Shown piece by piece: positions 1 through 57,593 of a stretch of DNA of 64,000 nt. The notes beneath the pieces were generated by a model. It was given only the letters and a program-made list of their open reading frames with translations, had not been told where the DNA came from and made no database searches. The position numbers and the translations under genes were made by a program. The number at the start of each line of letters is the position of its first letter. The first letter of the stretch is position 1. The DNA is from Closterium sp. NIES-65 (lineage: Eukaryota > Streptophyta > Zygnematophyceae > Desmidiales > Closteriaceae): assembly GCA_948144175.1 (NCBI GenBank), contig CANXME010001991.1, positions 124,001 to 188,000 on the forward strand, read 5' to 3'.

Positions 1-2223
1 ACCTTGGTGAGCACCCTGTTCCTAGCGACGGTAGCGTGCCGAACAGTATGGGGCCACATCAAGTTGCCCTGCCCAGATTCTATGAGCAGCGCCCTAGCTG
101 TCTCCAGAATTGTCCGGTTCGCCCGTTCTGCTACACCGCTAGACTGTGGGGTGTAAGCCGTGGTCAGCTCCCTCTGGATGCCCTGCTTCTTGAGCCAGGC
201 CGTCATCTCAGCTCCAAGGAACTCACCACCCCGATCTGTCCTAATCCGCTTCACCACACATTCCGCTTGCTTCTCCACGAATGGCAGCCAATCTTCCCTT
301 GTGTCCCTGAACCAGCAGCGACCCCACCAAGTCCATGTGGACCAGCTCCAACGGCTTCTTGCTCCTGCCAGCCACACTATGGAAGGGGAAACGGGTAAAT
401 TTTGAGAGCAAACAGATTTCACAATTCTCATCAGGTGGCTGTCCGTTCAGCTTCAGACCCTTAACGACTCCATCTTTCTCCAACTGCTTCAACAAGGGCA
501 TTGCCACATGCCCCAAGCGTCGATGTGCCATTGCCCAATCCGTCTCCCCAGATCTGGCCGACACTTTCACACCAACCCCTCCAACGGCATTGCACTCCCC
601 CTGGGATGCAGACCCCTCTCCAGCCTGCCCCCCACCATGCCACGCCAGCGCCGGCAGCTGCCACATCGATCTGTACACGTCCGTGCTCTCGTGTAGATCC
701 CAAAGCACCCGATTGCCCAGCTGCCCCTTGTAAGTGCGTGCCCCATCCGTGCTAGTGCTCACCCCAGCCTTGCCAAGCTTACGGAGGGAAATGAGGTTGG
801 CCTTGAGTTCAGGGACGAGAAGAACATCGTGCAGCACCACCGGCTTGCCATCCGCTCCCTTAAACGCAGCTCGTCCCGCACCAGCCACCTTCAGCGCGTG
901 TCTAGAGGCGGAGCACACCTCGTTGATCGGTGCAGCGCGTACGTGGTCCAGCAGGTCCTTGCGTGGCGTCATCGTCCAAGCAGCGCCCATGTCCAACACC
1001 CAATAATCCAGGGGGTGCAGCTCTGCTCCAACCTTGGCAGCTGTGTCTTCTTGCTCCCCCCGCTACCCTTGTTCTCCAAAATGGAAGAACTGGCCTGCGG
1101 TGCGCTCCTTCTTCTTTCCCGCACCGCCGTTGCTCTTCGGGTTGTTGTCGGACGAATCGGCGACCATGCTCGCGCCGTTTTTCTGGTTCCTCCGCGCGCC
1201 GCCATCCTGGTGACGATTCTGGGGGGTCCATTCATTGGGTTTCTTATAGCACAAGAACCAGGGGTGCCCCTCCTTCTCACAATACCAGCAACTCCCTTTC
1301 ATTTTTCCACCAGCACCCGACTTGCCCCCACGTCCAGATTTCGCACCGCGACCCCAACCGGTACCTCCTTGTTGGTCGTTGGAGTCGTCGTCCTTCTTTG
1401 CACCGCGTCCACCACCACCGAAGCCACGTCCTCTGCCACGTCGGCTTACTTGCATCCCATAGCCGCTGCTGCCGTCGTCTCCACCCCTCAGTTGGCGGCG
1501 ACGGAAGTCCTCCTCCAGAATCTTTGTCCGCACCCACTCGAGTGTCCACGAGCTCTGGTTCTACGGCAGGCTCAATCCGCTCGAGAATTGAAGCCACGAT
1601 TCCGGCAACAGCGAGAGCATCTTCAGTCACTTGGTCTGCTCCGGGTAGGAGATTCCCGCGGTCGCCAACTTCGTGTAGAGGTCGTCAATTTGTCCAGGAC
1701 AGGTTGCACCGCCTCTCCCTCGCTCAGGCGCAACGCGGACAGCTCCCTCTCCAGCATCAATGTTGCAACAACAGAGGTCGGGGCGTGCAGCTCCTTCAAC
1801 ACGGTCCACGCCTTCGGACCGCACTCATCCCCCGGCAGCAGGTGCATGACGTGGTGACGCTGGTTCAGCTCCAAACTCTGCGACATCAAATAGTAGCCAG
1901 CCGAGGAGAGCTTGTCCCAATCTTCGTGCAGCGCGGGGTCACTCGGTCTAGGCTCCTCCCCAATCATTAGTTTCAGCAATCCAATCTGACGGAAATAGAG
2001 TTGCATTTTCCAGGCCCAATCATCATAACCCTCACCATTGAACTTCTCGACGGTGAAATTCTTCAGCACCTCCTTGACCAGCGAGCCGTGGTTTGTTCGC
2101 GCTCCCCTTGGCGCTAAAACACCAGAATCATGGCTGCCGCTACGATCTTGGGCTGAAGATTCACCAGCTCCCGTCGAGGTGTTGCCCGCCATAGCTACCT
2201 ATATCGGGGATCACTATAACGCA

Positions 2224-2235
2224 GCTCTGATACCA
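2224..2235 (-). other. Primer-binding site of A1
   Basis: On the minus strand this reads TGGTATCAGAGC, which is complementary to the 3' end of plant initiator tRNA-Met, three bases inside the 5' LTR. It is the standard first-strand priming site of plant copia elements. The same 12-mer with the same spacing is found in the other A copies. Confidence 0.88.
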
Positions 2236-2238
2236 GCT

Positions 2239-3330
2239 TGTTGGTGTAAGGGCCTAATAAACTCAAGCTATTAAGACTTTATCACAGTTAAAACCTCTCC
2301 TCGGGGTCACCTCCACGGGTCCTTGGGTGCTTGGTACAAGACCAGCCCCTATCCTCGGGTTCGAGTTTGTAGAGAGAGGGATCAAGGACTTAGTCAAAAT
2401 AACAAGAGTACCTTGAACGTCGCGCAGCGTATCGTGCAGACCGTCGACCGGATTAAGCTGAGAATTTCCTATATCAAAGCTCACTCCAAGAGCTTTAAAG
2501 TAAGCCAAGTTGCCTCGCGAAAAGTTCTGCCATTACGAAGTTATGGCTCGGACAGCGTTTGCCTAGTGTTGGAGTGCTAGCGTACTAGCGTTGACTCGGG
2601 TAGCATTCCGCCGTCGCACCGCGTAGAAAAAAAATTCCAGGAAGGGAGGAATTCGCTTGAATTAAATTGACTATATTCAGGTACAAACAGAGAAGGAATA
2701 TATAGTTCTAGCTAGCAAGGACCTTGGGAATAAACCTGGGAACAACTAGGGATGATCCCAAATAATTCCAAGCAACAGAACCAACCTGGCTGGACAAAAC
2801 AGCAGGTGGTAGGTTGGTAAACAACCTCTGGTTCTGTTTTTCCAACCTGGGAAAACAACAACCAGGTTCAGGTCCTAAAAACACAGAACCTGATTTGTCT
2901 TTGCCCAACCAGCCAAATGCTGGTTCCACTGGTATCCCCTGGCCCTGTAGCAAGCAGATACAGACAAACAACATCAAACCTTCACCTAAATTGTACCCCT
3001 ATAGTGCTTGCCCTGCTACACTATAGTCAACCAAACAAAACAGTACAATTTCGAGTTGGATAGAACTGAATCTGCGCAATCAATTCAACCGAACCGCAAA
3101 GCTTCCATCTTGGGTTCCTTTGCGAGCTCGTCCTTTCTGCTTGTACTGTTCATAGCGCATACAATATTGTGCCGAAGCGCATAATGCGCGAGTACCCGCA
3201 AATGCTTCAAGCGAAAATTGCGAAAGCAAACAAACACACGAACATTCCATTCACACCCAAATGCATTCGCACACGCATACTCATACAAACAGACGGCAGG
3301 ATGTCGTGCAATGTGAAATTGCACCCAACA
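2239..3330 (-). repeat. 5' LTR of A1
   Basis: This is 1092 bp in reverse orientation: it starts TGTTGGTGTAAGGG and ends GCACCCAACA, the standard family A termini with TGTTGG/CCAACA inverted ends. It matches the LTRs of the complete A element at 51787-58726 along its whole length. The junction with GTGCTACTAG-type family B coding sequence at 3331 marks the insertion edge. Confidence 0.92.
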
Positions 3331-3422
3331 CGTGCTACTAGTCCTACTGTCACGCGTCTACTGGCCACTGTTGTCACTGACCCGTCGTTTGAGTCCAATG
3401 CTGGTCTCCCCTAATTGCTGAG

Positions 3423-4035
3423 TGTCAGTAGAGCTACACTGTGAGATCCTCGATAGATCCTAGGGGGGGTTACAGGCGCGTTTGCTCGGGGGGTTATGGG
3501 CGCACTGACCCGCTACTGAAACAAGCCCTTTTATCTCAATGGTCTAGTGGTTGGGATTTTGACATGGTATCAGAGCGGTCTCGGGTTCGAATCCCAGTGT
3601 ATGCACATGTTGGCCGTTGCCACTGTGCTCAGTCCTAGGCCTCCCAGTGTAGGGGGGGTGTTAGTAGAGCTACATTGTGAGATCCCCGATCGATCCTAGG
3701 GGGGGTTATAGGCGCGTTTGCTCGGGGGGTTATGGGCGCACTGATCCGCGACTGAAACAAGCCCTTTGATCTCAATGGTCTAGTGGTTGGGATTCTGACA
3801 TGGTATCAGAGCGGTCTCGGGTACGAATCCCAGTGTATGCACATGTTGGCCGTTGCCAATGTGCTCAGTCCTGGGCCTCCCAGTGTGGGGGGGTGTCAGT
3901 AGAGCTACACTGTGAGATCCCCGATCGATCCTAGGGGGGGTTACAGGCGCGTTTGCCTGGGGGGTTATGGGCGCACTGACCCGCTACTGAAACAAGCCGT
4001 TATATCCCAATGGTCTAGTGGTTGGGATTCTGACA
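3423..4035 (+). mobile_element. Tandem TRIM (LTR-internal-LTR-internal-LTR)
   Basis: Three copies of a 142-bp terminal repeat (3423-3564, 3659-3800, 3894-4035) are separated by two short internal segments (3565-3658, 94 bp; 3801-3893, 93 bp). The repeats begin TGTCAGTAGAGC (TGTTAG in the middle copy) and end TTCTGACA or TTTTGACA. Each internal segment starts with the primer site TGGTATCAGAGC and ends in a purine tract of G residues just before the next repeat. That is the anatomy of a terminal-repeat retrotransposon in miniature, here as a trimer of LTRs. There is no coding capacity. The whole block is flanked by a perfect 5-bp duplication CTGAG (3418-3422 and 4036-4040), so it inserted as one unit, or expanded after insertion, within family B pol. 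Confidence 0.88.
3533..3605 (+). promoter_or_regulatory. tRNA-like Pol III box A/box B pair across the LTR-primer site junction
   Basis: TGGTCTAGTGG at 3540-3550 fits a tRNA A box, and GGTTCGAATCC at 3584-3594 fits a B box. Their starts are 44 bases apart, as in a tRNA gene. The A box with the following GTTGGGATT resembles the 5' half of tRNA-Glu. The A box lies in the LTR, the B box lies in the internal segment, and the primer site sits between them. The second unit repeats the arrangement at about 3776-3840, with one change in the B box. Acceptor-stem pairing is poor, so it is not a functional tRNA. An alternative is that the B-box-like word is a drifted extension of the primer site, because the initiator tRNA-Met T arm reads similarly in complement. 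Confidence 0.55.
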
Positions 4036-5090
4036 CTGAGCTCGTTGACTTTGCTGCCGCCTGTCGTCTAGACTACGCCGCTAGTCTTGTTGCTGAGTCT
4101 GAGTCTGTCTGTCCTCCGTCCGTCGGGGGTGAGTGTGCTCTTGCAAAGGACGTCCTTGAGGACAGGCAGGAGGAGTTTGAGTGATTTGCCGCTACTTTAC
4201 CTCATCTTGTGTCCATGCCGATTGCCCCTGAGGGAGACCCGGATGCACCAGACATCCCGACCCCACGCTCTTACGCTGAGGAAATAGAAATCCCTACTCC
4301 TCTCAGTGGCAGATAGCCATGGACGCAGAGATGGCTTCCTGGAAGTCCTCAGGCACCTACGTCGACGATGTCCCCCTGCCTGAGGCGAACATCGTCATTG
4401 GCATGTGATTTCTAGGGTGAAGCGGCCGCCGGGTTTTCCGCCTGTCTTCAAGGCGCGTTACGTCGCACGAGGCTTCAGTCAGCGAGAGGGAGTTGACTTC
4501 TTCCAGACCTTCTCCCCCACCCCGAATATGACCACTCTTCGGGTTCTGCTGCACATAGCTGCTCACGGTGACTAGGAGCTGCACTCTCTTGACTTCAGCA
4601 CTGCTTTCCTATAGGGCAGCCTACACGAGGAGATCTGGCTGCGCCGCCCACCTGGCTTCACTGGGTCGTTTCCTCCTGGTACCCAGTGGAGCCTCCGACG
4701 GCCAGTCTACGGTCTCCGCCAGGCGCCCTGTGAGTGGCACGACACACTGAGGACGACCCTTGCGGCTCTTGGCTTCGCTCCTTCCACTGCTGATCTGTCG
4801 CTGTTTCTGTGCACCGACACCTCTCTGCCGCCGTTCTACGTCCTCGTGTACGTCGACGACTTGGTCTTTGCCACCTCTGACGCTGAGTGACTCGCCCACG
4901 TGAAGTCGGAGCTGCAGAAGAGACACACGTGCACAGACCTGGGTGAGCTGCGTAGCTATCTTGGCTTGCGGATCACCCGGGACAGAGCATAGTGCACCAT
5001 TACTTTGACTCAGTCACACATGGTGCAGCAGGTTCTTCAGCGCTTCGGCTTCACTTACTCCTTGCCTCAGCCCACTCCTCAGCCTACTCC

Positions 5091-8000
5091 AGATGGTAAC
5101 TGGAGTAAGTGCGTTACTTATCCATATCGGTGGCACCAAGAGTTAGTGCGTTACTTATATAAATAGATAGTACCAAAGATAATTGCGTTATATATACATA
5201 TGGATGGTACCAAGAGTAAGTGCGTTACTTACCTATATGTCTGGTACCTAAAGTAGATGTGTTACTTACCCATACGGATGGTACCAAAAGTAAGTGCGTT
5301 ATTATCCATATAGATGGTAACTGTAGTAGGTGCGTTACTTATCCATATCGGTGGCACCATGAGTAAGTCCGTTACTTACACAAAGGGATGGTATCAATAG
5401 TAAGTGCATTAGTTACCCATATGTCTGGTACCTAAAGTAGATGTGTTACTTACACATATGGATGGCACCACAAGTAAGTGCGTTATTACCCTTGTAGATA
5501 GTAATTGGAGTAAGTGCGTTACTTATTTGTATGAATAGTACGAAAAGTAAGTGCGTTACTTACACATATGGATGGAACCAAGAGTAAATGCGTTACTTAC
5601 CCATATGTCTGGTACCTAAAGTAGATGTGTTACTTATATATATGGATGGCACCACAACTAAGTGCGTTATTACCCTTATAGATAGTAATTGGAGTAATTG
5701 CGTTACTTATCTATATGGATAGTACGAAACGTATGTGCGTTACTTACACATATGGATGGTACCAAGAGTAAATGCGTTACTTTCCCATATGTCTGGTACC
5801 TAAAGTAGATGTGTTACTTACCCATATGGATGGTACCGAGGTATGTTACTTACCCATATGGATGGCACAAAAAGTAAGTGCGTTATTACCCATATAGATA
5901 GTAACTGGAGTAAGTGCGTTACTTATTCATACCGGTGACACCAAGAGTAAGTGCGTTACTTACACAAAGGGACGGTATCAAGAGTAACTACATTACTTAC
6001 CCATATTTCTCGTATCTCAAAAGATGTGTTACTTACACATTTGGATGGCACCAAAAGTAAGTGCGTTGTTACACTTATAGATAGTAATTGGAGTAAGTGC
6101 GTTACTTATCCATATAGATAGTACGAAAAGTATGCGCGTTACTTACACATATAGATGGTACCAAAAGTAAGTGCGTCTCTTACCCATATGTATGGTAGCT
6201 ACAGTAGATGTGTCACTTACCTATATGGATGGTACCAAGATTAAGTAAGTTAGTTGCCCATATGTATGGCACCAAAAGTAACTGTGTAATTACCCATATA
6301 GATGGTAACTGGAGTAAGTGCGTTACTTATCCATATTGGTGGCACCAAGAGTAAGTGCGTTACTTACACAAAGGGATGGTATTAAGAGTAAGTGCATTAC
6401 TTACCCACATGTCTGGTACCTAAAGTAGATGTGTTCCTTACACATACGGATGGCACCAAAAATAAGTGCGTTATTACTCTTATAGATTGTAATTGGAGTG
6501 AGTGCGTTACTTATCCATATAGATAGTACCAAAAGTAAGTACGTTATTTATACGTATGGATGGTACCAAGAGTAAGTGCGTTACTTACCCATATGTCTAG
6601 TACCTACAGTAGATGTGTTACTTACCCATATGGATCTCACCAAATATAAGTGCGTTATTACCCATATAGATGGTAACTGGAGCAAGTGCGTTACTTATCC
6701 ATATCGGTGGCACCAAGAGTAAGTGCGTTACTTATTTAAATAGATAGATCCAAAAGTAAGTGCGATATTTACACATATGGATGGTACCAAGAGTAAGTGC
6801 GTTACTTACCCATATGTCTGGTACCTAAAGAAGATGTCTTACTTGCCCATATGGATGGTACCGAGATTAAGTATGTTACTTACGCAAATGGATGGCACCA
6901 AAAGTAAGTGCGTTATTACCCATATAGATGGTAACTGGAGTATGTGTGTTACTTATCCATATCGGTGACACCAAGAGTAAGTGCGTTACTTACACAAAGG
7001 GATGGTATCAAGAGTAACTGCATTACTTACCCATATGTCTCGTACCTCAAGTAGATGTGTTACATTCACAAATGGATGGCACCAAAAGTAAGTGCGTTAT
7101 TACCCTTATAGATAGCAATTGGAGTAAGTGCGTTACTTATCTTTATAGATAGTACGAAAAGTAAGTGAGTTGCTTACACATATGGATGGTACCAAGAGTA
7201 AGTGCGTTACTTACCCATATGTCTGGTACCTAAAGTAGATGTGTTATTTACCCATATGGATGGTACCGAGATTAAGTATGTTACTTACCCATATGGATGG
7301 CACCAAAAGTAAGTGCGTTATTATCCATATAGATGGCAACTGGAGTAAGTGCGTTACTTATCCATATCGGTGGCAACAAGAGTAAGTGCTTTACTTACCC
7401 ATATGTCTGGTACCTAAAGTAGATATGTAACTTAGACATATGGATGGTACCAAAAGTAAGTGTGTTATTACCCTTATAGATAGTAATTGGAGTAAGTGCG
7501 TTACCTATCCATATAGATAGTACGAAATGTACGTGCGTTACTTACACATATGGATGGTACCAAGAGTAAGTGCGTTACTTACCCATATGTCTCGTACCTA
7601 CCGTAGATGTGTTACTTACCCATGTGGATGGTACCGAGATTAAGTATATTACTTACCCATATGGATGGCACCAAAAGTAAGTGCGTTATTACACATATAG
7701 ATGGTAACTGGAGTAAGTGCGTTACTTATCCGTATCGGTGGCACCAAAAGTAAGTGTATTACTTATCTTTATAAATAGTAGCAAAAGTAAGTGCGTTATT
7801 TATACATATGGATGGTACCAAGAGTAAGTGCGTTACTTATCCATATGGGTGGCACCAAGAGTGAGTGTGTTACTTACACAAAGGGATGGTATCAAGAGTA
7901 AGTGCATTACTTACCCACATGTCTGGTACCTAAAGTAGATGTATTACTTATACACTTGGATGGCATTACAAATAAGTGCGTTATTACCCTTATCGATAGT

Positions 8001-9996: not shown

Positions 9997-12900
9997 TCAA
10001 GAGGTGAGCAACCGAGGCAAGGTAGGCACAAGGCCCAGCTGAGTACAGAAGCGCTGATGGTCACAAGGCGCAAGCGCCTTGGTGAAGATATCAGCAGTGT
10101 TGGCCTCAGAGGCCACGTACGCAAGACGCAGCTGACCACGCTGCTGCAGCTCACGAGCAAGAAAGTAGCGGAGAGCAATGTGCTTTGTTCTGTGCTCCAG
10201 GCGCTGCTCCCGACACAAGGCCAGCATGGCCTTGTTGTCTACGTACAGCACTGGAGGAGAACGAGGTGGCTCTCCGAGGTCACTCAGCAGGTAGGTGAGC
10301 CAGCAAAGCTCCTGTGCACCCATGGCTCCTGCGTAGATCTCAGCCTCACAACTGGAGCCGAGAACAAAAGACGAGCGAGTAGCCCACCACGAGACAGAGC
10401 CGGAACCAAGGCTGAAGGTGTAACCCTGTGACGACCGCTGCGTAGCCTGGTCGTCAGCCCAAGAAGCGTCTGCGTGCCCAGTGAGGACCACTGGACTCTG
10501 CCCTCCAAGCACAAGCCCCATGCCTGACGTACTGCACAAGTAGCGCAACGCCCTCTTCGCTGCAGCCATGTAATCCGGTCTGTGTCTCCCAAGAGCAACA
10601 TAGCGTGCAAGAATGCTAAGAGGGTATGCAAGGTTAGGTCGTATGCAGGTCATCAGGTACATGAGGCAGCCAACAAGCTCTGGGTACGGGCCACTTGACT
10701 CTACGGACTCATCCGAAGGCAGAGCTGAGAGCGAGTGGCGAGTAGGTAGAGGAGTGGCCTGAGGCGAGGAGTACGTGAAGCCGAAGCGCTGAAGGACCTG
10801 CTGCACCATGTGTGACTGAGTCAGGGTAATGGTGCGGCGTGCTCTGTCCCGAGTGATCTGCAAGCCAAGGTAGCTGCGTAGTTCACCCTGGTCAGTGCAC
10901 GTGTGTCTCTTCTGCAGCTCGGACTTCACGTGGGCGAGTCCAGCAGTGTCAGCTGTGGCAAAGACCAAATCGTCGACGTACACGAAGATGTAGAACGGCG
11001 GCAAAGAAGTGTCGGTGCGCAGAAACAGCGACGGGTCGGCAGTAGAGGGAGCAAAGCCAAGAGCCGCAAGTGTAGTCCTCAGTGTGTCGTGCCACTCACG
11101 CGGTGCCGGGCGGAGACTGTAGACTGGCCGCCAGAGGCTCCACTGGGTGCTAGGAGGAAAAGACCCAGTGAAACCAGGTGGGCGACGCAGCCAGATCTCC
11201 TCGTGCAGGCTGCCCTGCAAGAAAGCAGTGTTGAAATCAAGAGAGTGTAGCTCGTAGTCACGGTGAGCAGCTATGTGCAGCAGTACCCGAAGAGTGGTCA
11301 TCTTCGAGGTGGGAGAGAAGGTCTGAAAGTAGTCAACTCCCTGCCGCTGACTGAAGCCACGAGCCACGTAACGCGCCTTGAAGATAGGTGGAGAACCCGG
11401 CGGTCGCTTCACCCTGAAAATCCACATGCCATTGACGATGTTCGCCCCAGGAGGGGGAACAGCGTCAACGTAGGTGCCTGTGGACTTGCAGGAAGCCATC
11501 TCTGCATCCATAGCTGCCTGCCACTGAGAAGAGTAGGGACCCTCTATCGCTTCCGCGTAAGAGCGCGGAGTCGGGATGTCAAGTGCATCCGGGTCTCCCT
11601 CAGAGGTAAGCAGTACGGACACGAGATGAGGTGAAGTAGCGGCCAAGCACTGGAACTCCTCTTGCCTATCCTCAAGGACGTCCGTGCCAAGGGCACACTC
11701 ACCCCCGACGGACGGAGGACAGACAGACTTATACTCAGCAACAAGACTGGCGGCGTAGTCTAGGCGACAGCGAGCAGCAAAGTCGACGAGCTCAGCAACT
11801 AGGGCAGACGCAGCAGTGGAATCAAAGGAAGGGTCAGTGACAGCAGTAGCAAGGAGACGCGTGACAGTAGGACTAGCAGCACGAAGAGAGTCCGACTCCG
11901 GGTCGGCAAGAGCAGGAAGAAAGGACTTAGGAGGAGAAGGCAATGGGCACGCAGAGGAGCAGTGGACGGACGCAGAGACATCCGGTGCGTGCCAGGGACA
12001 GGAGGAGGACGCTGACGCGAACCGCGACCACTAATGCGAGCAGCACGGACAGGCTACGCAGGGCGAGACGCAGGCTCACAACGCTCAGCACCCCCACAGT
12101 CAGCACCCTCAGGCTCAGCACCCTCAGCAGCACCAGAGTCACCAGCGACCTCGACAGGCTCAACAGCGTCTACCTAGGACACACCTGAAGGGGCAGGACC
12201 CTGAGGGGGGAGGGGGTCTACCGGGGGGGGGACTGGCACAAGGAAGAGCGGTGGCCGGGGGAGGGACGGAGTGCGGTAGGGGAAGAGACGGTAGTAGGAC
12301 AGCTTGGGGTGACGTGACGTCCTGGGAGGACAGAACACGGCGAGAGGTGGGGTGGTAGAACTGCTACCCTGGCCCGTCAGGGGGGAAACCCAGGAAGACG
12401 CAAGGAGCAGCACGAGGGGACAGCTTGTCCGCAAACAAGTCGCGGACAAACGCCCGCGATCCCCAGACACGGAACGCAGACGCATCGCCAACCTTCCCCG
12501 TCCACAGCAAAGCTGGGGAGGTCTCCGGCATGGAGACCCTGGGCTGAAGGTTGATCTGATGCGCCGCGTACCAAACCGCAAACAGCCACAGAAAATGGGG
12601 GGCAGCCGCATGCATCATGGACGTACGGGCGACGTCCATGACCATGCCAATGTGGCGCTCAGCAATCCCATTTTGCTGTGGAGAGTCCGGAAGCGTGAAG
12701 GTCTGGCGGATGCCTCGTGCACGACAGTAGGCTCGCAGAAGGCCAGAGGAGAACTCCACGCCTCTGTCAGAGTGTAGACGCATAACAGGAAAGTCCGAGC
12801 CGAAGCTCTGCCTGAGCTGGACACGAGCTGCGCGGATCCAGCCGATCAACACCTCAGTGACATCACCCTTGCTGCGCAAGGGGAAGACCGTGGTGTAACG

Positions 12901-15193
12901 CGAGTAGTCGTCAACCGCCAGCAGGAAGTAGCGCTCGTGACCCTGTCCACGGACGCGGGCCGGGCCCCACACGTCCATGTGAAGCGTCTGCAGCGCAACC
13001 TCTGTCGGAGGAAACTGAGAGGAGTGAGGGGCAGCCCGCTGCCGCCCCTCGACAAAGGAGACGCAGGTAGGGCCAGGCCCCGGAGGAAGGGGAGGGAGGG
13101 ACCGGGGAAGACCAGAGACAAGGACACGGGAGGCCATACTTTGGAGACGAAGCAGGGAGGGGTGACCAAGGCGGTGGTGCCACAGGAGAGTCTCGTGAGA
13201 CAGGAGACGACACGAGCAGGGGGCAGACTCAGGACCAGACCTGGACGCTGCAGCAAACTCCTCACCCGACGCAGCTACCTGACCAGACGCACTGAGTGCA
13301 GGAGACGCAGTGGTCAGTGTGTACAGGCTCGACCCCAGCCAACGTGTAAACGTGGCCAGGTGTCGGCCTGTCCGAGCGTCCGTGCAGTGGGTCACCCGCT
13401 GATTCGCAGGAGTGAATTGGTGAACCCCTCCATCCTGTAGGTCAGCACCACTCACCAAGTTCGTAGAGATCGAGGGGAGGTAGAGACGAGACAGGGTGCC
13501 AGAGGGGGCCGCCGGACACGGGAGGACAGTGGAGAAGTGAGCTAGGAGAGGACCCCCAAAGGGGTCTGCCAGGGAGACTGCAACTGGCCGACCAAGCGGC
13601 GTGAGTGTGGTGCGGTCTCGAAAGAAGGAGCAAGAAGCCCCCGAGTCAAGTGTGAAGGTGTGGGAGGCCGAAGCCGACGCAGTACCTGAGAGCGCAGACT
13701 CACCAGTACCGGAGGAAGCAGACGCACTAGCACCTAGAGCAGCAGCCTCGGTAGCACCAAGAGCAGTAGCCTCACCAGTACCTAGAGCAGCAGTCGCAAT
13801 GCCCGGGTCGGGCGGGAAACACCGGTAACGGTCACCCTCCTCACTAATAGACACAGTATACATAGCAGCAAGAATAGTATCAAAGTCAAGGTCAAAGATA
13901 GCTACCCCTGCGCTAGACAGCTCGCCCCAGCGAGGGATCTCAGTGGCCTCAGGGAACTGGTGACGCCAAGCGTCCGTCAGGCGGCCAAAGCAGCGCTGGG
14001 TGGGGTGCGCACCCCCACACTGCTCACATGCACGGTTGCCGGTGCGCAGGACGTAGGTGCACGGACCGGTACCCCCACCCCGCTTGCGTGCAGCGTACCA
14101 CTCACGGAGCTGCTGAGGGGACAGGGTCTCCCGACTGCGCTGCTGCTGCTGGCGGTGACCACCACCGGAGCCACTCCTCTGCGAAGAGCCACGACCTCCT
14201 CCTCCTCCTCCTCCGCCACCGCCTCCTCCACCTCCGCCACCTCCACCACCTCCGCTCCCACCGCCACCGCCGCCGCCGCCTCCGCCTCCACTGCCGCCGC
14301 CGACACCTCCACCCCCGCCACCACTCCCACCACCACCCCCACCACCTCCACTGCCTCCAACGCCGCCTCGACCGCCCCCGCTAGCTCCTCCAGCGCCCCT
14401 GCCCCCCTTGCCCTTGCCAGAGCGGCGCTTCCCACTAGGGGTAGACGCCGCACCGACCGACTCCAGACCAACGAGGTCGGCCGCAGCAGAAGAGGCAACA
14501 GAGGGCAAAAGAGGGGAGGGGGAACACCCATAAAAGATGGGGGTGCGCGGGTCACCACGAGAGGCCCCTACAGCAACTATGCTCTTCTCCGCTGTTAGGA
14601 GGCCCTTCTCGAGGAGGTCAACAGTGAGAGTGGTGGGACAGACTGAGAGAAAGTGGTCCCTGACTACGCGAAGGGAGTCAGGGAGACGGGTGACTATGTA
14701 GTAGAGGGTGATGTACATGGGGGGGGGAGGTTCTTGGCGCAGAAGTCAGCAGGAAGTGCAGCGCGGTAGCGAGTGTCACTAGTGCGGAGGTGCGTAATGA
14801 GGTCAACGACTGTGGGAAAGGCAGCAAGGTCAGGGAAGAGGTATGGTAGCATGAGGCGGCTCAGTGCAGCATTGGCAGGGGAGGAGTAGCGTGCAACTAC
14901 AGCGTCGTACAAGGTCTGAGCACTCTTATACTGGCTAAAGTGCGCACGCTCAGAGGTAGGAAGGTGGCGATGCACAGCAAGACGTGCAGCAGCATCGCGG
15001 GTGGCCCACTATGAGCGAAAAGTAACGTCAGCATCAGCAGCAGGGGCAGGAGAGGCACCGGAGGTGAGGTCAAAGAGACAGAGAGTCCGTCTGCCCTATC
15101 GCACTGTAAGAAAAGCTGCAGGTCATCTATGCAGACGTCAAAGTCAATGGCCCGACCCTCAGCGTCAAAAGCAAGGACACTAGGGGTAGCCAT
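9997..15193 (-). pseudogene. gag-pol remnant of B1
   Basis: Extent of the B1 polyprotein fossil. Gag begins MATPSVLAFDAEGRAIDFDV near 15193. A serine/glycine segment with a long polyglycine run lies at about 14160-14420. It is followed by a knuckle-like CEQCGGAHPTQRC near 13990-14040, a DSG protease motif in LDSGASCSFF near 13640, and a GAG-pre-integrase histidine pair (HHRLGHPSLLRLQS) near 13140-13180. The integrase core is at about 13000-12600 with HMDVWGPARVRG, HSDRGVEFSS and SPQQNGIAERH. Reverse transcriptase is at about 11500-10800 with YVDD, and RNase H at about 10560-10050 ends near FTKALAP. The order protease-integrase-RT-RNase H is that of Ty1/copia. About two breaks; read as a fossil. 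Confidence 0.88.
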
Positions 15194-22091: not shown

Positions 22092-25000
22092 TCAACTCAT
22101 GCGCACACAACGCCAATGAGGCTCATCTGCAAGCCTCTTGGTGAGGAAGTCTGCTGGCTGCTGGTGAGTCTTGATGTAGATCGGATTCACCGTCCCCCTC
22201 TTCACCTCCTTACGCAGCCAGTGCCACTTGATACGCATGTGCTTGTTCAGCCCATGAAGCACAGCGTTCCTGGCCATCCCAAGAGCTCCCTTGCTATCAC
22301 AAAACAGTGGCATAGCAACCTTCTGCTCCTGGCCAATCTCTTCCAACAGCCTCTTCAGCCAAATCACCTCCTTCACCCCATGAAACATTGCCATGTACTC
22401 TGACTCCACGGAAGAGAGTGCTGTCTCCGTCTGCTTCTTTCACCTCCAACTAACCGGTCCTCCCCCAACTACGCAGATGTATCCTCCCACAGATGAGGAA
22501 TCCTCCTTCTCAGAGGCCCACGTAGCATCGGTAAAGCAAGTGAGAAAGAGCTTGCCTTCTCCAAGCCTCTCCCCCTTCTCTTTCAGCACCTCAATCCCTT
22601 TCTGCTTCACATGTGCCAACAAGACACGGAGGGTAGGGGGTTTGGCAGTGGGAGCAAAGATCTCATTGAAGTCCCGCTTCTCCTTCTGCATAAACCCCTT
22701 AGCCACCAGCCTACTCTTGTAGATGGTGACCTGTCCCTTGTCATCGGTCTTGATCCTTAGCACCCACTTGCACTGTACGGCTTTCTTCCCCTCAGGCAGC
22801 ACCACCAGCTCCCATGTCCCATTCTCTAGCAGGCTCTGGTACTCAGCATCCCTGGAAACCAGCCACTTCTCCCTATCTGGTCCAGCTAATGCCTCCTCCA
22901 TGCTAGCTGGTTCCTCTGGTGCAGGGGCAAGAAAACAGTAGGCAGGTTCATCCTCTTCCTCTGGATCATAGCCATGCGGTAGAATCAGCAATGCCTCCTC
23001 GGTCCCAAGCTGCTGCTCCGCTACATCAGCTCCTGCAATCAGCTTCTTAGTAGCCATACGGGTACGTCCTGGCCTGGAGACGGGTGTCTCCCATCCCTTC
23101 ATAACAACACCCTTCGGCTTCTTAGTTTTTCCCTGCTGCTGCTCTCCTCCCTCGGATCCAGCAGCTCCACTAGTGCTACCGCTAGTCTCTACACCATCAC
23201 CTCCACCAGCAGGTGCCTCCTGCACCTTCTCTCCATCACCACCCTCTGCAGCTACCTCCTCTCCCTCCTCCCATACACTAGGAGTCAGGTCCAACTGAAT
23301 GGTGATCTGCTCCATCTGCTGGGGCACCCTGGCCTCCGGCTGTTTCTCCCAGCTCCCATACATCATGCCCTCAACAAACTTCACATCCCTGCTGTCAAAC
23401 AACACACCCTTGGAAGGTTCCAACAGCAGCCATCCCTTGCTCTCAGCAGCCAGCCCCAAATGCACACATCAGATTGCACTCGCCCCCAACTTACTGCGGT
23501 AGGTCTTGGGGACGTGGGCGACTGCCATGCAACCGAACACCCTCAGCATGTCCACCGGCGGCTTCCTCCCAAGCCACCTCTCCAACGGCACCCACGAGTC
23601 ATCCCCAACCTTTGTGAGTACCCTGTTCCTAGCGACGGTAGCGTGCCGAACAGCATGGGGCCACATCAAGTTGCCCAGACCAGATTCTATGAGCAGCGCC
23701 CTAGCTGTCTCCAGAATTGTCCGGTTCGCCCGTTCTGCTACACCGTTAGACTATGGGGTGTAAGCCGTGGTCAGCTCCCTCTGGATGCCCTGCTTCTTGA
23801 GCCAGGCCGTCATCTCAGCTCCAAGGAACTCACCACCCCGATCTGTCCTAATCCGCTTCACCACACACTCCACTTGCTTCTCCACGAATTGCAGCCAATC
23901 TTCCCGTATCGTAGAGGCGGCATGGTCCTTCTGCTTCAGCGGATATGCCCACATATACCTGCTCCAATCAACCACTATGGTCAGAAAGTACTGCTCCCCC
24001 TTGTGCCCCTGAACCGGCAGCGGCCCCACCAAGTCCATGTGGACCAGCTCCAATGGCTTCTTGCTCCTGCCAGCCACACTACGGAAGGGGAAACGGGTAA
24101 ACTTTGAGAGCAAACGGATTTCAAAATTCTCATCAGGTGGCTGTCCGTTCAGCTTCAAACCCTTAACTGCTCCTTCCTTCTCCAACTGCTTCAACAAGGG
24201 CATTGCCACATGCCCTAAGCGTCGGTGTGCCATTGCCCAATCCGTCTCCCACAATCTGGCCGACACTTTCACACCAACCCCTCGAACGGTGTTGCACTCC
24301 TCCTGGGATGCGGACCCCTCTCCAGCCTGCCCCCCACCATGCCACGCCAACGCCGGCAGCTGCCACATGGATCTGTACACGTCCGTACTTTCGTGCAGAT
24401 CCCAAAGCACCCGGTTGCCCAGCTGCCCCTCGTAAGTGCGTGCCCCATCCGTGCTAGTGCTCACCCCAGACTTGCCAAGCTTACGGAGGGAGATGAGGTT
24501 GGCCTTGAGTTCAAGAACAAGGAGAACGTCGTGCAGCACCACCGGCTTGCCATCCGCTCCGTTAAACGCAGCTCGTCCCGCACCAGCCACCTTCAGCGCG
24601 TGTCCAGAGGCGGAGCACACCTCGTTGATCGGTGCAGCTTGTACGTGGTCCAGTAGGTCTTTTCGCGGCGTCATCGTCCAAGCAGCGCCCGTGTCCAACA
24701 CCCAATAGTCCAGGGGGTGCAGCTCTGCTCCAACCTTGGCACAGGCGTCTCCTAGCTCCCCGTGCTCTCCAATATGGAAGAACTGGCCCGCGGTGCGCTC
24801 CTTCTTCTTTTCCGCACCGCCGTTGGTCTTCGGGTTGTTGTCGGACGAATCGGCGATCATGTTCGCGCCGTTTTTCTGGTTCCTCCGCGCGCCGCCATCC
24901 TGGTGACGATTCTGGGGGGTCCATCCATCGGGTTTCTTATAGCACAAAAACCAGGGGTGCCCCTCCTTCTCACAATACCAGCAACTCCCTTTCATTTTGC

Positions 25001-25886
25001 CACCGGCACCCGACTTGCCCCCACGTCCAGATTTCGCACCGCGACCCCAACCGGTACCTCCTTGTTGGTCGTTGGAGTTGTCGTCCTTCTTTGCACCGCG
25101 TCCAGCACCACCGAAGCCACATCCTCTGCCACGTCGGCTCCCTTGCATTCCGTAGCCGCTGCTGCCGTCGTCTCCACCCCTCAGTAGACGGCGACGGAAG
25201 TCCTCCTCCAGAATCTTCGTCCGCACCCACTCGAGTGTCCACGAGCTCTGGTTCTGCGGTAGGCTGAATCCGCTCGTGAATTGAAGCCATGATTCCGGCA
25301 GCAGCGAGAGCATCTTAAGGCACTTGGTCTGCTCCGGGTAGGTGATTCCCGCGGTCGCCAACTTCGCGTAGAGGTCGCGCAATTTGTCCAGGACAGGTTG
25401 CACTAGCTCTCCCTCGCTCAGGCGCAACGCGGACAGCTCCCTCTCCAGCATCAACGTTGTAACAACGGAGGTCGGGGCGTGCAGCTCCTTCAACACGGTC
25501 CACTCCTTCGGACCACACTCAACCTCCGGCAGCTGGTGCATGACGTGGTGACGCTGGTTCAGCTCCAAACTCTGTGACATCAAATAGTAGCCAGCCAAGG
25601 AGCGCTCATCCCAATCTTCCTGCAGCGCGGGGTCACTCGGTCTAGGCTCCTCCCCAATCATTAGTTTCAGCAATCCAATCTGACGGAAATATAGTTGCAT
25701 TTTCCAGGCCCAATCATCATAGCCCTCACCATTGAACTTCTCGACGGTGAAGTTCTTCAGCACCTCTTTCACCAGCGAGCCCTGGTTTGTTCACGCTCCC
25801 CTTGACGCTGAAACACCAGAATCATGGCTGCCGCTACGATCTTGGGCTGAAGATTCACCAGCTCCCGTCGAGGTGTTGCCCGCCAT
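22092..25886 (-). pseudogene. gag-pol remnant of A3
   Basis: Gag starts at 25886 with the family N terminus. The zinc knuckle CWYCEKEGHPWFLC is near 24940-24990, protease LDTGAAWTMTP near 24690, and the GAG-pre-integrase HRRLGHVAMPLLKQL and CEIR-type finger near 24120-24240. The integrase core is at about 23650-24070 with VHMDLVGPLPVQG and RTDRGGEFLG. A linker is followed by the start of reverse transcriptase near 22640-22860, and RNase H at about 22100-22560 includes FTDATWASE and THQQPADFLTKRL. A fossil with several breaks. Confidence 0.85.
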
Positions 25887-31279: not shown

Positions 31280-34200
31280 CTAGTGCAATGCCATGCCACA
31301 CATCTTAGCACACTTCCAATGTGCGCTCTCCGGAAGTCTCTTGGTGAGAAAATCTGCCGCCTGCTTGCTAGCCTTCACATGATGAAGCTCAACAATCCCC
31401 TCCTTCACCATCTGCCTCACCCAATGCCACTTAATCTTCATGTGCTTGTTCAGCTCATTGAGGATAGAATTATTTGCCATGCCAATAGCAGCCTCACTGT
31501 CGGAGAAAAGTGGTGTAGGTCCCTCCTGTTCTGCTCCCATGTCCTCCAGCAGCTTCCTCAGGAGCACGATCTCCTTGATGGCATGGTACATCGCCATGTA
31601 CTCTGCCTCTTCGGAAGACTGAGCAATCTCACTCTGCTTCTTGGACATCCAGCTCACTGGTCCACCTCCGACCATGCACACAAAGCCGCCAACCGATGAC
31701 TGATCCTCATCCTCTGAGGCCCATGTGGCGTCGGTGAAGCACGACAACTTCAAGGTTCCAGGCGTGACCCCATTTGCTCCAATCTGTTTCAGCTGGCCGC
31801 CAGCTGAAAACTGAACACCAGCAGATGCCGTTGATCCGAGGTAGCGCACCAAGCGCTTTGCCACCTCCAACTGCTCCTCAGTGGGCCGCTGCACAACTCT
31901 GGCCAGCTGCCCCACTCTGAATGAAGCATCAGGTCGCGTATGCACAGCTGCATACATCACACTCCCAATGAGTGACTGGTACTCAGTCTGCTGCTCATCC
32001 TCGAATACATCATCCTCCTCAGCTGCCTTCTTCAGTTTGAAGCCCGCAGGGAACGGTGTCATCACAGTGCGACCCCTAGTCACACCATAGCGCTCCATGA
32101 CACCAGAGATGTAGTGTGACTGATGCACCTTCAGCCACCTCCTCTCAACATCCCTGTCAATCTGCAGCCCCAAGTAGTAATGGACATCCCCCGGCATCTT
32201 GCACTTGAAGTTGTCCATCAACAGCTTCTGTGTCCTCTCAATCTGCTCCACGGAGGGTGAGAACAGCAGTATGTCATCGACATACACCAGCAGCAAGAGC
32301 AGCTGCTCCCCCTCTCCAAGCAGAAACAAACTGTGATCCGCCTGGGATGTCTTGAAGCCTCCACTCAGCAGCACCTCCTCCAGCTTCTCGTACCAGCACC
32401 TGGGCGCTTGCTTTAGGCCATAGATGGCCTTCTTAAGCTTGCACACCCGGCTGATCCCATCCTCATAGCCGTTGGGCTGCGCCATGTAGATATCCTCCAG
32501 CAGTATTCCATTGAGGAACGCAGTGGTGATATCCATCTACTTCACGTGCCATCCCTTCACAGCTGCGCCAGCCATCAAAGTCCTCAGTGTTACTGGCTTA
32601 GCAACGGGAGCGAAGATCTCTCCAAAGTCGACCTTCTCTTTCTGCTAAAACCCCTTGGCGACCAAGCGGCTCTTGAACCGCTCCAACGCACCATCAGCTC
32701 CACTCTTCACCTTGAAGACCCACTTGCTGCTGATTGGCCGTCGCCCCTCGGGTAACTCAACAAGCTCCCAAGTCCCATTCTCAATGAGACTGTTGAACTC
32801 CGCATCCATGGCAGCCTTCCACTCCTCCTTCTGGGGTCCACTGAGTGCCTCCTCCACTGTGGCTGGTTCTCCAGGCAAGGGTGTGAAGAAACAGAATGCC
32901 ATCTCCTCATCCTCCCCCTCATCCGCCTGAACCGCCATGGCACCTTGATTGGGTCCACCCAAACGGCTATACTTCAGCCTTGAGGGTGCTGCTACCACTC
33001 TCTTCTCGCGTGTTGCAATCTGCTGCCCATGTGGTGAAGCTCCTCTCTGCACATTCCTCTTGGTGACCTTGGCGTTTGCAGCAAGCTCGGGCTGAGTTGG
33101 TGAGTCCACACGTGCCGACTCATCCTCCAACCCCTCCTCTCCGGCAGGACCAGAAACTTGCTGCTCACCACCGCCACTGTGGTCACTGGTCAGCTCTGAC
33201 CCAGGGAGATCCTCAAGGTGCAGGTGAACCTCCTCCACTGCAGACCGCTCAATCTCCTGCAAACGCAAGCCAATTTGCACCTGCTGCTGCTGCTGCCAAT
33301 CCTTGTACATGACGTCCTCCACAAACTTGACATCACGACTGACCAGCGTCCTCTTGCTTTTGGAGTCCCACATCAGCCACCCTTTCGAGTCACGAGCCAT
33401 CCCAAGATGGACAGCCCACACAGCAGCAACTTCCAGCTTGTGCCTCTGCTCCTTAGGCACCATCACAAGCCCCATGCAGCCCCATACCCGCAGCATGTCA
33501 ATAGATGGCTTCTTCCCAAGCCAACGCTCGTACGGCACCCAATGCTTGTCGCCAACATGAGTCAAGACCCTGTTCTTGACCGTGATGACATGGCGAACAG
33601 CATCAGGCCAGAACTTGTAGGGCATCCCAGCAGCCCCCAACAAGGTCTTAGCCGCCTCGCCAATGGTCCGGTTGGCACGCTCAGCAATGCCGTTCTGCTG
33701 CGGTGTTCTAGGGCAGGTCAGCTGATGTCGGATGCCATTTCTCTTGAGGAACTTGGTGAATTCCGCTCCAATGAACTCTCCACCTCGGTCGCTCCTCAGC
33801 ACCTTCACCAGCCGCATCGCTTGCCGCTCCACCATCGGCAACCAATCCTCCTTGATCGCCGCTGCAGCATCGCTCTTCTTGGACAAGGGACGCGCCCACG
33901 TGAAACGGCTCCATTCGTCCACCATGGTAAGGAAGTACAGCACTCCCCCAGTCCCCTCAGTCCTCATAGGACCCACCAGGTCCATGTGCACTACCTCCAA
34001 TGGTGCCTTGGCTGATCCCTCTGCACGTGGAAACGGGAACCGCGCAAACTTGTATTGCATGCACGCCTCGCAGCTGCCATAGTGAGCGCCATCTCCTTGT
34101 AGTTGCAGCCCATGCACGCACTTCTCCTTATGCATCACCTCCAGTGTTGAAACAGCCACGTGTGCGAGCCGCCGATGCCAAGTCTCCCAATCTGCTTGGC

Positions 34201-35800
34201 CCGAGTTAGCCGACGCCTTCACCGCCGCGCTTCCTCCAATCAGCTCCTCTCCTTGCACACCTTGCTGCTCCTCCTCGGTGACACTCTCCTCCATAGATGC
34301 CGCCGCTGCCGCCTTGCCCGATTTCCGCCAAGGGAGGACCAGGATCTGCCACATCCGCTTGTGGACATCTCCCTTCCACTGCAGGTCCCAAATGAGGCGC
34401 TCATCGTTGTAAGCACGATAGCGCTCCGAGCCAATCGTCTCGGTGTTCACACCCGCATCTCCCAACCGGCCGGTAGAAATCAGGTTCGCGCACAAGTCCG
34501 GCACCCACAGCACATTCTTCAGCCCCACGAGCTCTCCATCCGCTCCCATGAACTTGGCGCATCCCATGCCCATGACCTTGGCCTTGGCGCCCGTCACGGA
34601 TGTGACCGTAGAGATAGGTGTGGGCTGAATCTCATCGAGTAGGTCCGCACGAGGAGTCATGTGCCAGGAGCTTCCCGAGTCAATCACCCAATGGGTGAGG
34701 GGGTGTAGGAGAACCTTGGCAGCCATAGCAAGGCCGGTTGCGCCTTCGTTTACGAAAAAGAAGAACCCGGCCTTCCGCTCCTCAGATTTGCCGCCTTTCT
34801 CCTCCTCCTTCTCCTCTCCACTAGCTCCCATGACTCCCCCACTCCTCTTGCCACCATGCAGGTTCCTCGATGAAGGCGGGGTCCAATCCTTGGGTCGTTG
34901 GTAGCACTTCCGCCAACGATGTCCGCGCTTCTTGCAGTAGAAGCACACCTCCCCTTGGCCCCCGCCGCCATCCTCCTTAGGGTTGTCCTCGTTTTTGCCC
35001 TTCCATTTCTTCTTGAAGCCACTCTTTCCACCTCCAACTCCATAGCCAGCCCCCTCCTCCGAGCGCTCCACACTCCGCCGCCGCAAGTCCTCCTCTAGGA
35101 TGCGCGCGCGAATGTAATCCACGCTCCATTGAGGTTGTTGGGAGTTGAGCTTGATCGCTAGGGCAGACCACGACTCCGGCAGCCGTATCACAATCTCCAC
35201 GCATTGCACGAGCTCCGGGTACACCACACCGCCTCCTTGGAGCTTCGTGAAGATGTCCCGCGTCTCATCCAACACCGCTTGTATCGGCTCTCCATCAACG
35301 AACTTGATGTCGCGCAGCCGCCGCGCGAGTAGCACGATGCCGGTAGCATGTGTCGGTGAGTGCACATCCACAAGCTTCCTCCAAGCCTTGGGGCCACACT
35401 CTGGATCACCCAAGAGGTCCTTGATGTGGTCAAGTTGTCGTCCGCCAACCGCTTGCACCATGAGCATGTACGCATCGAATGATCGCTTCATCCACGCTCC
35501 TTTCAGCTCCCCGGCCTCCGACATCTTCTCCTTCCCCTCCACCAGATCCAATAGCTTGTATTGCGTGTACATCAGCCTCATGCGGAAGCTCCAGTGCTTG
35601 TAGTCCTCCCCCATGAATTTCTCAATAGAGAACGCCTTCACGGGATCCACGGTTGTTGGAGATGGTGTAGTAGACGTAGGTAGCGTAGGGCTGGCTGGTT
35701 GGTGAGTCCCCACTCCTCCACCAGCAACTCCCCCCTGCTCTCCAGCCTCTCTACTTCTATCCATCTCGCCACTAGCACCTCCGGAGTTCGTACCAACCAT
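31280..35800 (-). pseudogene. gag-pol region of C1
   Basis: Gag starts MVGTNSGGASGEMDRS at 35800, about 220 bp from the primer site. The zinc knuckle CFYCKKRGHRWRKC is near 34905-34950, protease VIDSGSSWHMTP near 34655-34690, the GAG-pre-integrase WHRRLAHVAVSTLEV with CEACMQYKF near 34040-34190, and the integrase core at about 33570-33990 (VHMDLVGPMRTEG, RSDRGGEFIG, TPQQNGIAERANR). The linker lies at about 32900-33300, and reverse transcriptase at about 32800-31900 has KWVFKVKSGADG, MDITTAFLNGILL and YVDDILLFS. RNase H at about 31750-31290 has FTDATWASEDEDQ, SSEEAEYMAM and ADFLTKRLPE. Nearly complete, about one or two breaks. Confidence 0.9.
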
Positions 35801-56000: not shown

Positions 56001-57593
56001 GAGGAGGCATTAGCTGGACCAGATAGGGACAAATGGCTAGCTTCTAGGGATGCTGAGTACCAGAGCCTGCTGGAGAATGGGACTTGGGAACTAGTGGTGC
56101 TGCCTGAGGGAAAGAAAGCGGTACAATGCAAGTGGGTGCTAAGGATCAAGACTGACGACAAGGGGCAGGTCACCATCTACAAGAGTAGGTTGGTGGCTAA
56201 GGGGTTTATGCAGAAGGAGAAGCGGGACTTCAATGAGATCTTTGCTCCCACTGCCAAACCCCCTACCCTTCGTGTCTTGTTGGGAGATGCAGCCGTTAGT
56301 GGGAAGTTCATTATCCAGATGGACATATCAACGGCATTCCTCAACGGGATTTTAGAGGAGGAGGTGTTCATGACGCAGCCACCTGGGTATGAGGATGGTA
56401 CGGGCAGGGTGTGCAAGCTGAAAACGTCCATCTACGGCTTGAAGCAGGCGCCACGCTGCTGGTACCAGAAGTTGGCAGCTGTTTTAGAGGAGATGGGATT
56501 CAGGATCAGCAGCTGTGATGAGAGCCTCTTCCTCAAGGGGGAGGGGGAGAAGCTGGTGCTGTTTCTGGTCTATGTGGACGACATTCTTCTCTTTAGCAGC
56601 AGCATGAAGGAGATCCAGAAGGTGCAGCAGCAGCTGATGGAGAACTTCAAGTGCAAGAACCTTGGGGAGGTAAAGTACTATCTCGGGATGCACGTGGAGA
56701 GGGATCTGGATCACAGGTGGTTGAAGCTGCACCAGGAGAAGTTCATCAAGGAGCTTGGGGAGAAGTACAGAATTGAGAATGAGCGCAAGGTTGCAACTCC
56801 CCTGCCAGCAGAATTCAAGCTTGTGAAAGCTGCAGAGGATGAAGGGGTTGAAGCCGAGGAGCAGCAGCAATTTCAGTCCTTGGTGGGCAGCCTCTTGTAT
56901 GCAGCAGTTCACACGAGGCCCGACATCTCTTTCTCGGTTGGGCAGCTGGCTAGGGTGGTGCAGAATCCATCAGAGGAGCAGGTGGATGCAGCTGAGCGTG
57001 TGGTGAAGTATCTGAACTCTCACCCAAGCATTGGAGTTCAATACTCCGCATCTGCACAGGTGAAGCAGAAAGGGGTTGAGGTGCTGAAAGAGAAGGGGGA
57101 GAGGCTTGGAGAAGGCAAGCTCTTTCTCACTTGCTTTACCGATGCTACGTGGGCCTCTGAGATGGAGGATTCCTCATTAGTGGGAGGATACATCTGCGTA
57201 GTTGGAGGAGGATCTGTTAGTTGGAGATCAAAGAAGCACACGGAGACAGCACTCTCTTCTGTGGAATCAGAGTACATGGCGATGTTACATGGGGTGAAGG
57301 AGGTGATTTGGCTGAGGAGGCTGTTAGAGGAGATTGGCCAGGAGCAAAAGGTTGCTACGCCGCTATTTTGTGATTGCAAGGGAGCTCTTGGGATGGCCAA
57401 AAACGCTGTGCTTCATGGGCTGAACAAGCACATGCTAATCAAGTGGCACTGGTTGCGTAAGGAGGTGAAGAGGGGGACGGTGAATCCGATCTACATCAAG
57501 ACTCACCAGCAGCCAGCAGACTTCCTCACCAAGAGGCTTGCAGATGAGCCTCATTGGCGTTGTGTGCGCATGAGTGGAATGAGCATGAACTAG
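53032..57593 (+). pseudogene. gag-pol region of A7
   Basis: Gag starts MAGNTSGVAGESSAQD at 53032. The gag core is at about 53150-53750 (LMIGEEPRPSDP), followed by a Gly/Arg-rich segment and a CX2CX4HX4C-type knuckle near 53935-53975. Protease LDTGAAWTMTP is near 54217-54250, the GAG-pre-integrase HRRLGHVAMPLLKQL with CEICLLSKF near 54690-54820, and the integrase core at about 54865-55200 (VHMDLVGPLPVQG, RTDRGGEFLG, TPQSNGVAERANR). The linker with acidic residues is at about 55560-55900. Reverse transcriptase at about 56050-56720 has KWVLRIKTDDKGQ, MDISTAFLNGILEEE and YVDDILLFSSS. RNase H at about 57120-57560 has FTDATWASE, VESEYMAM and THQQPADFLTKRLADE. Nearly complete, about one break. Confidence 0.92.

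Follow-up and report, generated by a model that had tools for sequence, protein, structure and literature searches.

A family of TRIMs in the genome of Closterium sp. NIES-65 was found to carry a tRNA-type A box near the end of its LTR and a tRNA-type B box in the internal segment, with the primer site (PBS) for initiator tRNA-Met between them. In the window (the whole stretch of 64,000 nucleotides analysed here), the two boxes start 44 bases apart in both units of a TRIM array and are exact in the first unit, which agrees with what an earlier note on this DNA had read from the sequence. Judged by the published descriptions compared, a layout with tRNA-type boxes on either side of the PBS looks new; TRIMs with tRNA-type boxes have already been published. 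We suggest, tentatively and at somewhat below an even chance, that this TRIM may work like the TRIMp3 group, through a tRNA-type promoter split across the PBS.

The TRIM array and its family

The array occupies positions 3423–4035 of the window on the forward strand, to which all the features below belong. It consists of three LTRs of 142 bp each, arranged head to tail as LTR-internal-LTR-internal-LTR, and is bounded on both outer sides by the 5-bp TSD CTGAG (3418–3422 and 4036–4040). LTR 1 (3423–3564) runs from TGTCAG to TGACA, its end being placed by the PBS at 3565. Its tail contains a TTTT run (3529–3532), 8–11 nt 5' of the A-box-like word TGGTCTAGTGG (3540–3550, an exact word match), and a further TTTT between box A and the PBS (3557–3560). 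Internal segment 1 (3565–3658, 94 bp) opens with the PBS TGGTATCAGAGC (3565–3576), followed after 7 nt by the exact B-box-like word GGTTCGAATCC (3584–3594), and ends by eye in a G-run (polypurine tract); in the copies, too, a G-run stands just before the following LTR. The PBS is complementary to the 3' end of the host initiator tRNA with CCA added, the genes of which end in GCTCTGATA. LTR 2 (3659–3800) starts with TGTTAG and contains an exact box A (3776–3786), and internal segment 2 (3801–3893, 93 bp) contains the PBS (3801–3812) and an altered B box, GGTACGAATCC (3820–3830), with one mismatch (10 of 11 positions identical). LTR 3 (3894–4035) also has an exact box A (4011–4021), with no internal segment or B box behind it. 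The earlier note had the pair repeated in the second unit; this held for the exact box A and the spacing of 44, but not fully for the B box. Given the TTTT between the boxes of unit 1 and the mismatch in the B box of unit 2, neither pair in the window looks intact, and both are probably damaged as Pol III promoters. The further statement that the boxes pair only where an internal segment follows an LTR was borne out as anatomy.

The surrounding sequence was also inspected. Window positions 1903–5194 are 97% identical to another locus (L002) over 3.3 kb, with the TRIM array and the same TSD included, which indicates that the TRIM was copied along with its host sequence. Ty1-copia reading frames, some of them divided between two frames, lie at 53032–57593, 31280–35800, 23751–25772 and 12364–14718 (Pfam: gag, integrase and RVT_2), and several initiator-Met primer sites occur in the window.

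In the source genome of 874 Mb, the LTR-end/PBS junction with an A-type LTR end was found at 5,014 sites (up to 3 mismatches), its exact 28-mer at 2,447 sites and a 24-bp internal word at 2,811 sites (up to 2 mismatches; 98 of 100 listed places were fetched). The PBS followed after 7 nt by an exact B box occurred at 895 sites, and the reversed-pattern control at none. Among the fetched loci, 39 complete two-LTR elements, selected by an exact 5-bp TSD, measured 342–377 bp with 5' LTRs of 138–142 bp and an internal segment that in this family is about 93 or 62 bp long. The identity between their LTRs had a median of 98.6% and reached 100% in 10 of the 39. When the TSD rule was not applied, 32 of 42 groups with two LTR starts and two ends had a TSD of 5 bp or more. 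A perfect A box, PBS and B box were all present in 30 of the 39 complete TSD-flanked elements, a count biased for the PBS and B box, for which many of the loci had been preselected as exact, and not for the A box. The family is almost certainly a non-coding TRIM of thousands of copies with an initiator-tRNA PBS and 5-bp TSDs. Its classification as a TRIM, made from the sequence at the outset, was supported by the element length of up to 377 bp, the 5-bp TSDs, the PBS and the G-rich tract.

Box words, chance and conservation

The tRNA-type consensus used here was TRGYNNARNGG for the A box and GGTTCGANNCC for the B box, 30–60 apart. When the 238-nt unit was shuffled 60,000 times with its dinucleotides preserved, this degenerate consensus yielded a pair at the required distance once; singly, an A-type word arose in 3,818 of the shuffles and a B-type word in 41. 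The window contains one strict pair, and a chance origin of the pair is rejected. Taken singly and with one mismatch allowed, the box words are unremarkable in the 64 kb, since 14 and 16 of 100 shuffles equalled their counts. Eleven PBS-like sites with up to 2 mismatches were present in the window, and at the nine outside the TRIM neither box was found within 60 nt.

The B box was also sought in junctions sampled without requiring it. From 100 listed LTR-PBS places, 20 junctions were chosen as absent from the places listed for the PBS with an exact B box after 7 nt, so that perfect cases of this spacing are under-represented. With up to 4 mismatches allowed, a B-like word was present in all 20, standing 10 nt after the PBS in 13, which have three inserted bases, and 7 nt after it in 7. 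The A–B spacing is therefore 44 or 47 bases, not a constant 44. The B word of 13 of the 20 junctions fits the consensus. The commonest variant, GGTTCGATTCC (four junctions), alters a position that the consensus leaves free, and a recurrent change of the last C to T (three junctions) alters a fixed one.

Relation to a particular tRNA was less clear. ARAGORN found no tRNA gene in the window, and Rfam gave no match at 3300–4200 with E up to 10, either to tRNA or to 5S rRNA. The earlier note had described the promoter as tRNA-Glu-like; the box A region does resemble the D arm of host tRNA-Glu, but by eye the two differ by one indel and about three bases, and no tRNA model matched. A search with a tRNA-Glu query gave three genes with the sequence TAGTCTAGT(C/T)GGTTAGGAT, and a pattern for the tRNA-Glu anticodon arm had no match. 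The initiator tRNA and tRNA-Glu genes of the host look plant-like. Direct capture of tRNA-Glu was considered as a source and set aside: the exact word TGGTCTAGTGGTTAGGAT occurs at 41 genomic sites, and the four of these that were read proved to be TRIM LTR copies and not tRNA genes.

At the subfamily level, 70 units with a recognisable leader, picked by a loose leader match (subfamily A, 48; B, 9; C, 13), were compared by majority base. Over LTR positions 1–60, the subfamilies differ in 11 (A–B), 8 (A–C) and 13 (B–C) of the 60 columns, over positions 61–95 in 1 of 35, and over the 15 columns just 5' of the stem in 1, 0 and 1, respectively. From the stem 5' of box A onward, there is no difference among the three over 74 columns, which comprise this stem, the A box, the second stem, the LTR end, the PBS, the spacer, the B box and 12 columns beyond. 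The comparison supports, with its selection bias, that tRNA-type boxes across the PBS have been kept at the subfamily level. On the same alignment, the whole U5-PBS-B stretch is to be regarded as under constraint or homogenisation, with the boxes not singled out within it.

Individual copies were sampled without conditioning on the A box, PBS or B box (98 places, yielding 76 unique 110-nt sequences). Substitutions were counted in the 67 copies with a TRIM LTR, the other nine (eight joins to other LTRs and one hybrid) being set aside, and amounted to 12/737 in box A, 15/737 in box B, 36/804 in the PBS and 80/3417 in all other columns. That the boxes should be more conserved than their flanks, as the note had expected, was not significant in these copies (p = 0.27 for A and 0.69 for B, each versus the rest); with the PBS counted among the rest, the two boxes together gave p = 0.053. 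In an alignment of 159 LTRs, which includes a few damaged rows and two hybrids from locus L040 (four of 163 LTR-body matches were unclassified), 27 of 137 eleven-column windows were less diverged than box A. Variants common to both LTRs of an element were already in the template. Their ratio to private variants was 10:23 after the T-run versus 102:88 in the rest of the LTR (p = 0.015, with rows from the complete elements that are not independent). Counted by sites (5/32 versus 32/110), this deficit was not significant (p = 0.17), and box A alone had three shared and three private variants.

A putative promoter split by the primer site

A more detailed version of the proposal is put forward with somewhat greater reserve. 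Only a complete element would carry the promoter, the T-run would set a minimal terminal repeat (R), and an element of 377 bp would yield an RNA of about 250 nt that could be replicated. Pol III would read a promoter made up of the A box in the LTR tail and the B box in the internal segment. Since transcription by Pol III usually begins some 10–20 nt before box A, the start would lie at or just before the T-run; in the 5' LTR, the start is predicted about 12–20 nt 5' of box A. The transcript would then pass through the PBS, the internal segment and the 3' LTR, ending at the TTTT just 5' of box A there. The run at 3529–3532 in LTR 1 marks the position that is proposed as the terminator in a 3' LTR and as the end of the short R. 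The resulting R at both RNA ends could serve the first strand transfer. In the 3' LTR and in solo LTRs, which have no B box, the promoter would be incomplete. Mobilisation of the TRIM would be in trans, by an LTR retrotransposon that probably belongs to the Ty1-copia kind, as the PBS type, the 5-bp TSD and the copia-rich window suggest. If true, such a promoter would make transcription depend on an intact element, would deprive solo and 3' LTRs of it, and would offer a clean natural test of LTR retroelement replication from a Pol III transcript. The large family and its near-identical LTR pairs make the proposal directly testable.

The T-run pattern is in keeping with these predictions in most elements. 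T4 stands at the T-run place in both LTRs, with none between, in 29 of the 39 complete elements; it occurs between the two T-runs in 4, and the T-run T4 is absent from both LTRs in 4 and from one in 3. Three elements have TTCT at the T-run place in both LTRs. A T4-free stretch of such length is expected in 73% of shuffles and is thus weak evidence. The motif TATAWW was not found in any of the 159 TRIM LTRs, and was present in 6 of 19 stretches of about 150 nt preceding the PBS in a second LTR family, X, where part of the sequence is possibly flank. No copy beginning at the predicted Pol III start, as a SINE-like copy would, was found among the 76 unique copies. Among 88 units bearing a B box, the start of L070 falls within the box A region and not at the predicted start. 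In L098 (about 770–800), the LTR sequence that should precede the box A region has given way to some 11 T in a row, again not at the predicted start.

Among known systems, tRNA-derived SINEs have A and B boxes at tRNA spacing, as found here; unlike them, the present element has LTRs, a PBS and 5-bp TSDs, which point to LTR-type integration. Ordinary Pol II plant TRIMs and SMARTs are similar in size, with two LTRs and a short internal segment, but tRNA-type boxes are not mentioned for them in the available portions of their descriptions (PMC3281118, PMC4717578), and the TRIM LTRs studied here lack TATAWW. Cassandra, according to the accessible part of the literature, shares with this family the TRIM structure, a Pol III-type promoter (here putative), a methionine PBS and tandem LTR-internal-LTR arrays (PMC7215508, PMC10853983). 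Both ends of its RNA lie in the LTRs and share an 18-bp repeat, which resembles the short terminal repeat predicted here, and it is given as the only validated TRIMp3 in the sections available (PMC10886601). In contrast to Cassandra, in which a 5S rRNA promoter is described as complete in each LTR, Rfam found no 5S rRNA in the LTR here. Helenus, a group of TRIMs with a tRNA-like sequence in the LTR, was described in 2024 and grouped with Cassandra and Ajax as TRIMp3 (Kojima 2024, PMC10886601). It occurs in fungi, where mobilisation by copia elements is considered probable, and in plants, where the only case given is Helenus-1_SMo of Selaginella moellendorffii, whose LTR measures 120 bp and whose internal part measures 85 bp (PMC10886601). 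Like Helenus, the present family is a TRIM with tRNA-like A and B boxes, a PBS, a PPT and a 5-bp TSD (PMC10886601, in part). However, by description, both Helenus boxes lie inside the LTR, whereas here box A is in the LTR and box B in the internal segment past the PBS. With box B outside the LTR, the element lacks the defining feature of Helenus and was not filed there, although it may work in the same way. In the accessible part of the same source, the promoter of the Pol III-type TRIMs so far is said to be in the LTR (PMC10886601), and no report of boxes split by a primer site was found in the literature searched, which was mostly without subscription papers and preprints.

For the reading by Pol III, we counted the rarity of the box pair (1 in 60,000 shuffles), its intactness in 30/39 elements, the absence of subfamily differences and the B-like word in 20/20 junctions, together with the shared-variant deficit, the T4 pattern in 29/39, the absence of TATAWW, the rarity of an A-less hybrid and the precedent of Cassandra and Helenus. 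Against it stand the lack of slower decay in the boxes, conservation over the whole stretch, the near invariance of LTR 61–95 and a shared-variant deficit that is not significant by sites, as well as the fixed-position B change in 3/20 junctions, the T4 exceptions, the lack of a copy starting at the predicted Pol III start, the failure to recognise a tRNA and the defects in both window units. On a rival reading, which we consider possible but somewhat less likely, the U5-PBS-leader is conserved because a helper's machinery needs its RNA or cDNA for priming by tRNA, for packaging or for strand transfer, with transcription by Pol II and the boxes incidental. No LTR element can do without its LTR termini and PBS, the conservation extends over the whole stretch including the spacer, and box A lies between the 7-bp arms ATCCCAA and TTGGGAT. 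The hairpin around box A was nevertheless judged weak and rejected as an RNA structure, since the fold energies of 12 copies averaged z = -0.4 against shuffles. In the 159 rows, the closing pair of the arm was A-T in 142, G-C in 4, A-C in 8 and G-T in 3, so that two-sided changes occurred in four rows, three of one lineage, and the commonest variant was A-C. Such constraint would also leave unexplained why canonical A and B words stand at the distance usual in tRNA genes, and a B-like word (2 mismatches allowed) is absent from 14 of 16 sampled X-type leaders. As a separate observation, the closing pair is changed from A-T to G-C on both sides in L081, L095 and L052, of which L081 and L095 lack one base inside box A.

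It is unlikely that the boxes are functionless remains of a SINE or tRNA fragment that an ancestor of the element once took up. Near-neutral decay in the copies and the lack of a recognised tRNA would fit this origin, and a SINE insertion into a TRIM LTR has been proposed for Helenus in the part of the source available (PMC10886601); however, neither box has a majority-base change between subfamilies, and 30/39 TSD-flanked elements are intact, with the selection bias given above. Very improbable is the competing reading offered in the earlier note, namely that the B-box word derives by decay from a longer primer site for initiator tRNA-Met. In the GAA-bearing subfamily, the PBS is followed by GAAGGTCTCG, which by eye is similar to the complement of the host tRNA, GAGGTTTCG, but this similarity covers the spacer and not the B box. 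The extension is not favoured: the host initiator tRNA would continue the PBS as GAGGTTTCGATCC, but the B box stands 7 or 10 nt after the PBS; box A would also be unaccounted for.

X-type LTRs and chimeric copies

LTR family X ends in CATTCCTCATTTCTTCACA before the same PBS at 571 genomic sites. Sixteen of these sites were read: 14 had other leaders without a B-like word, as noted above, and two had the TRIM leader with an altered B word. An X-like LTR is joined exactly at the PBS in 8 of the 76 unique copies, including L192 and L193, which share flanks and probably represent one event; in L040, an X tail follows the body of a TRIM LTR. Seven X–TRIM joins were present in longer loci (L011, L020, L023, L063, L065, L072 and L009), and joins were also seen in L195–L197. 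Locus L065, bounded by the TSD GTAAT, consists of an X-type LTR, a TRIM internal segment and a TRIM LTR. Past the TRIM LTR, five of the seven chimeras run into another PBS-like leader, and L063 has neither this nor the TSD-bounded form. Template switching between elements, a published mechanism (PMC1950507), would explain the X–TRIM chimeras; ordinary recombination may be an alternative source. In each of five X chimeras, the two longest open frames downstream of the TRIM LTR were compared with Pfam; none of the 10 matched a family, and X is therefore not established as copia, nor as autonomous. X may be a helper of the TRIM.

Copies without box A that keep the PBS, which the earlier note had named as evidence against its reading, do exist but are rare: an A-less hybrid TRIM-type LTR word was found at four sites in two loci (up to 3 mismatches), which together with the 8/76 joins compares with 5,014 junctions. 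No amplified A-less TRIM lineage was found with this pattern, whose reach, with up to 3 mismatches, is a single hybrid. The hybrid LTR of L040 matches the subfamily-B LTR without gaps over positions 1–91 and is X sequence by about 96. In the matched subfamily-B LTR, T4 lies at 103 and box A at 114; the switch out of TRIM sequence thus falls about 12 to 6 nt before the T-run position, near the predicted R. In L040 (1300–1900), both outer LTRs have the subfamily-B-type TRIM body and X tail and enclose an inner A-type LTR, and by eye the element has the TSD TAGCT. The hybrid word pair recurs at C2096:19951 and 20373. Finally, L122–L124 are X-type elements with an altered primer site, TGCTATCAGAGC, followed by a different leader, and this sequence is a recurrent one-mismatch form of the PBS among X-type sites.
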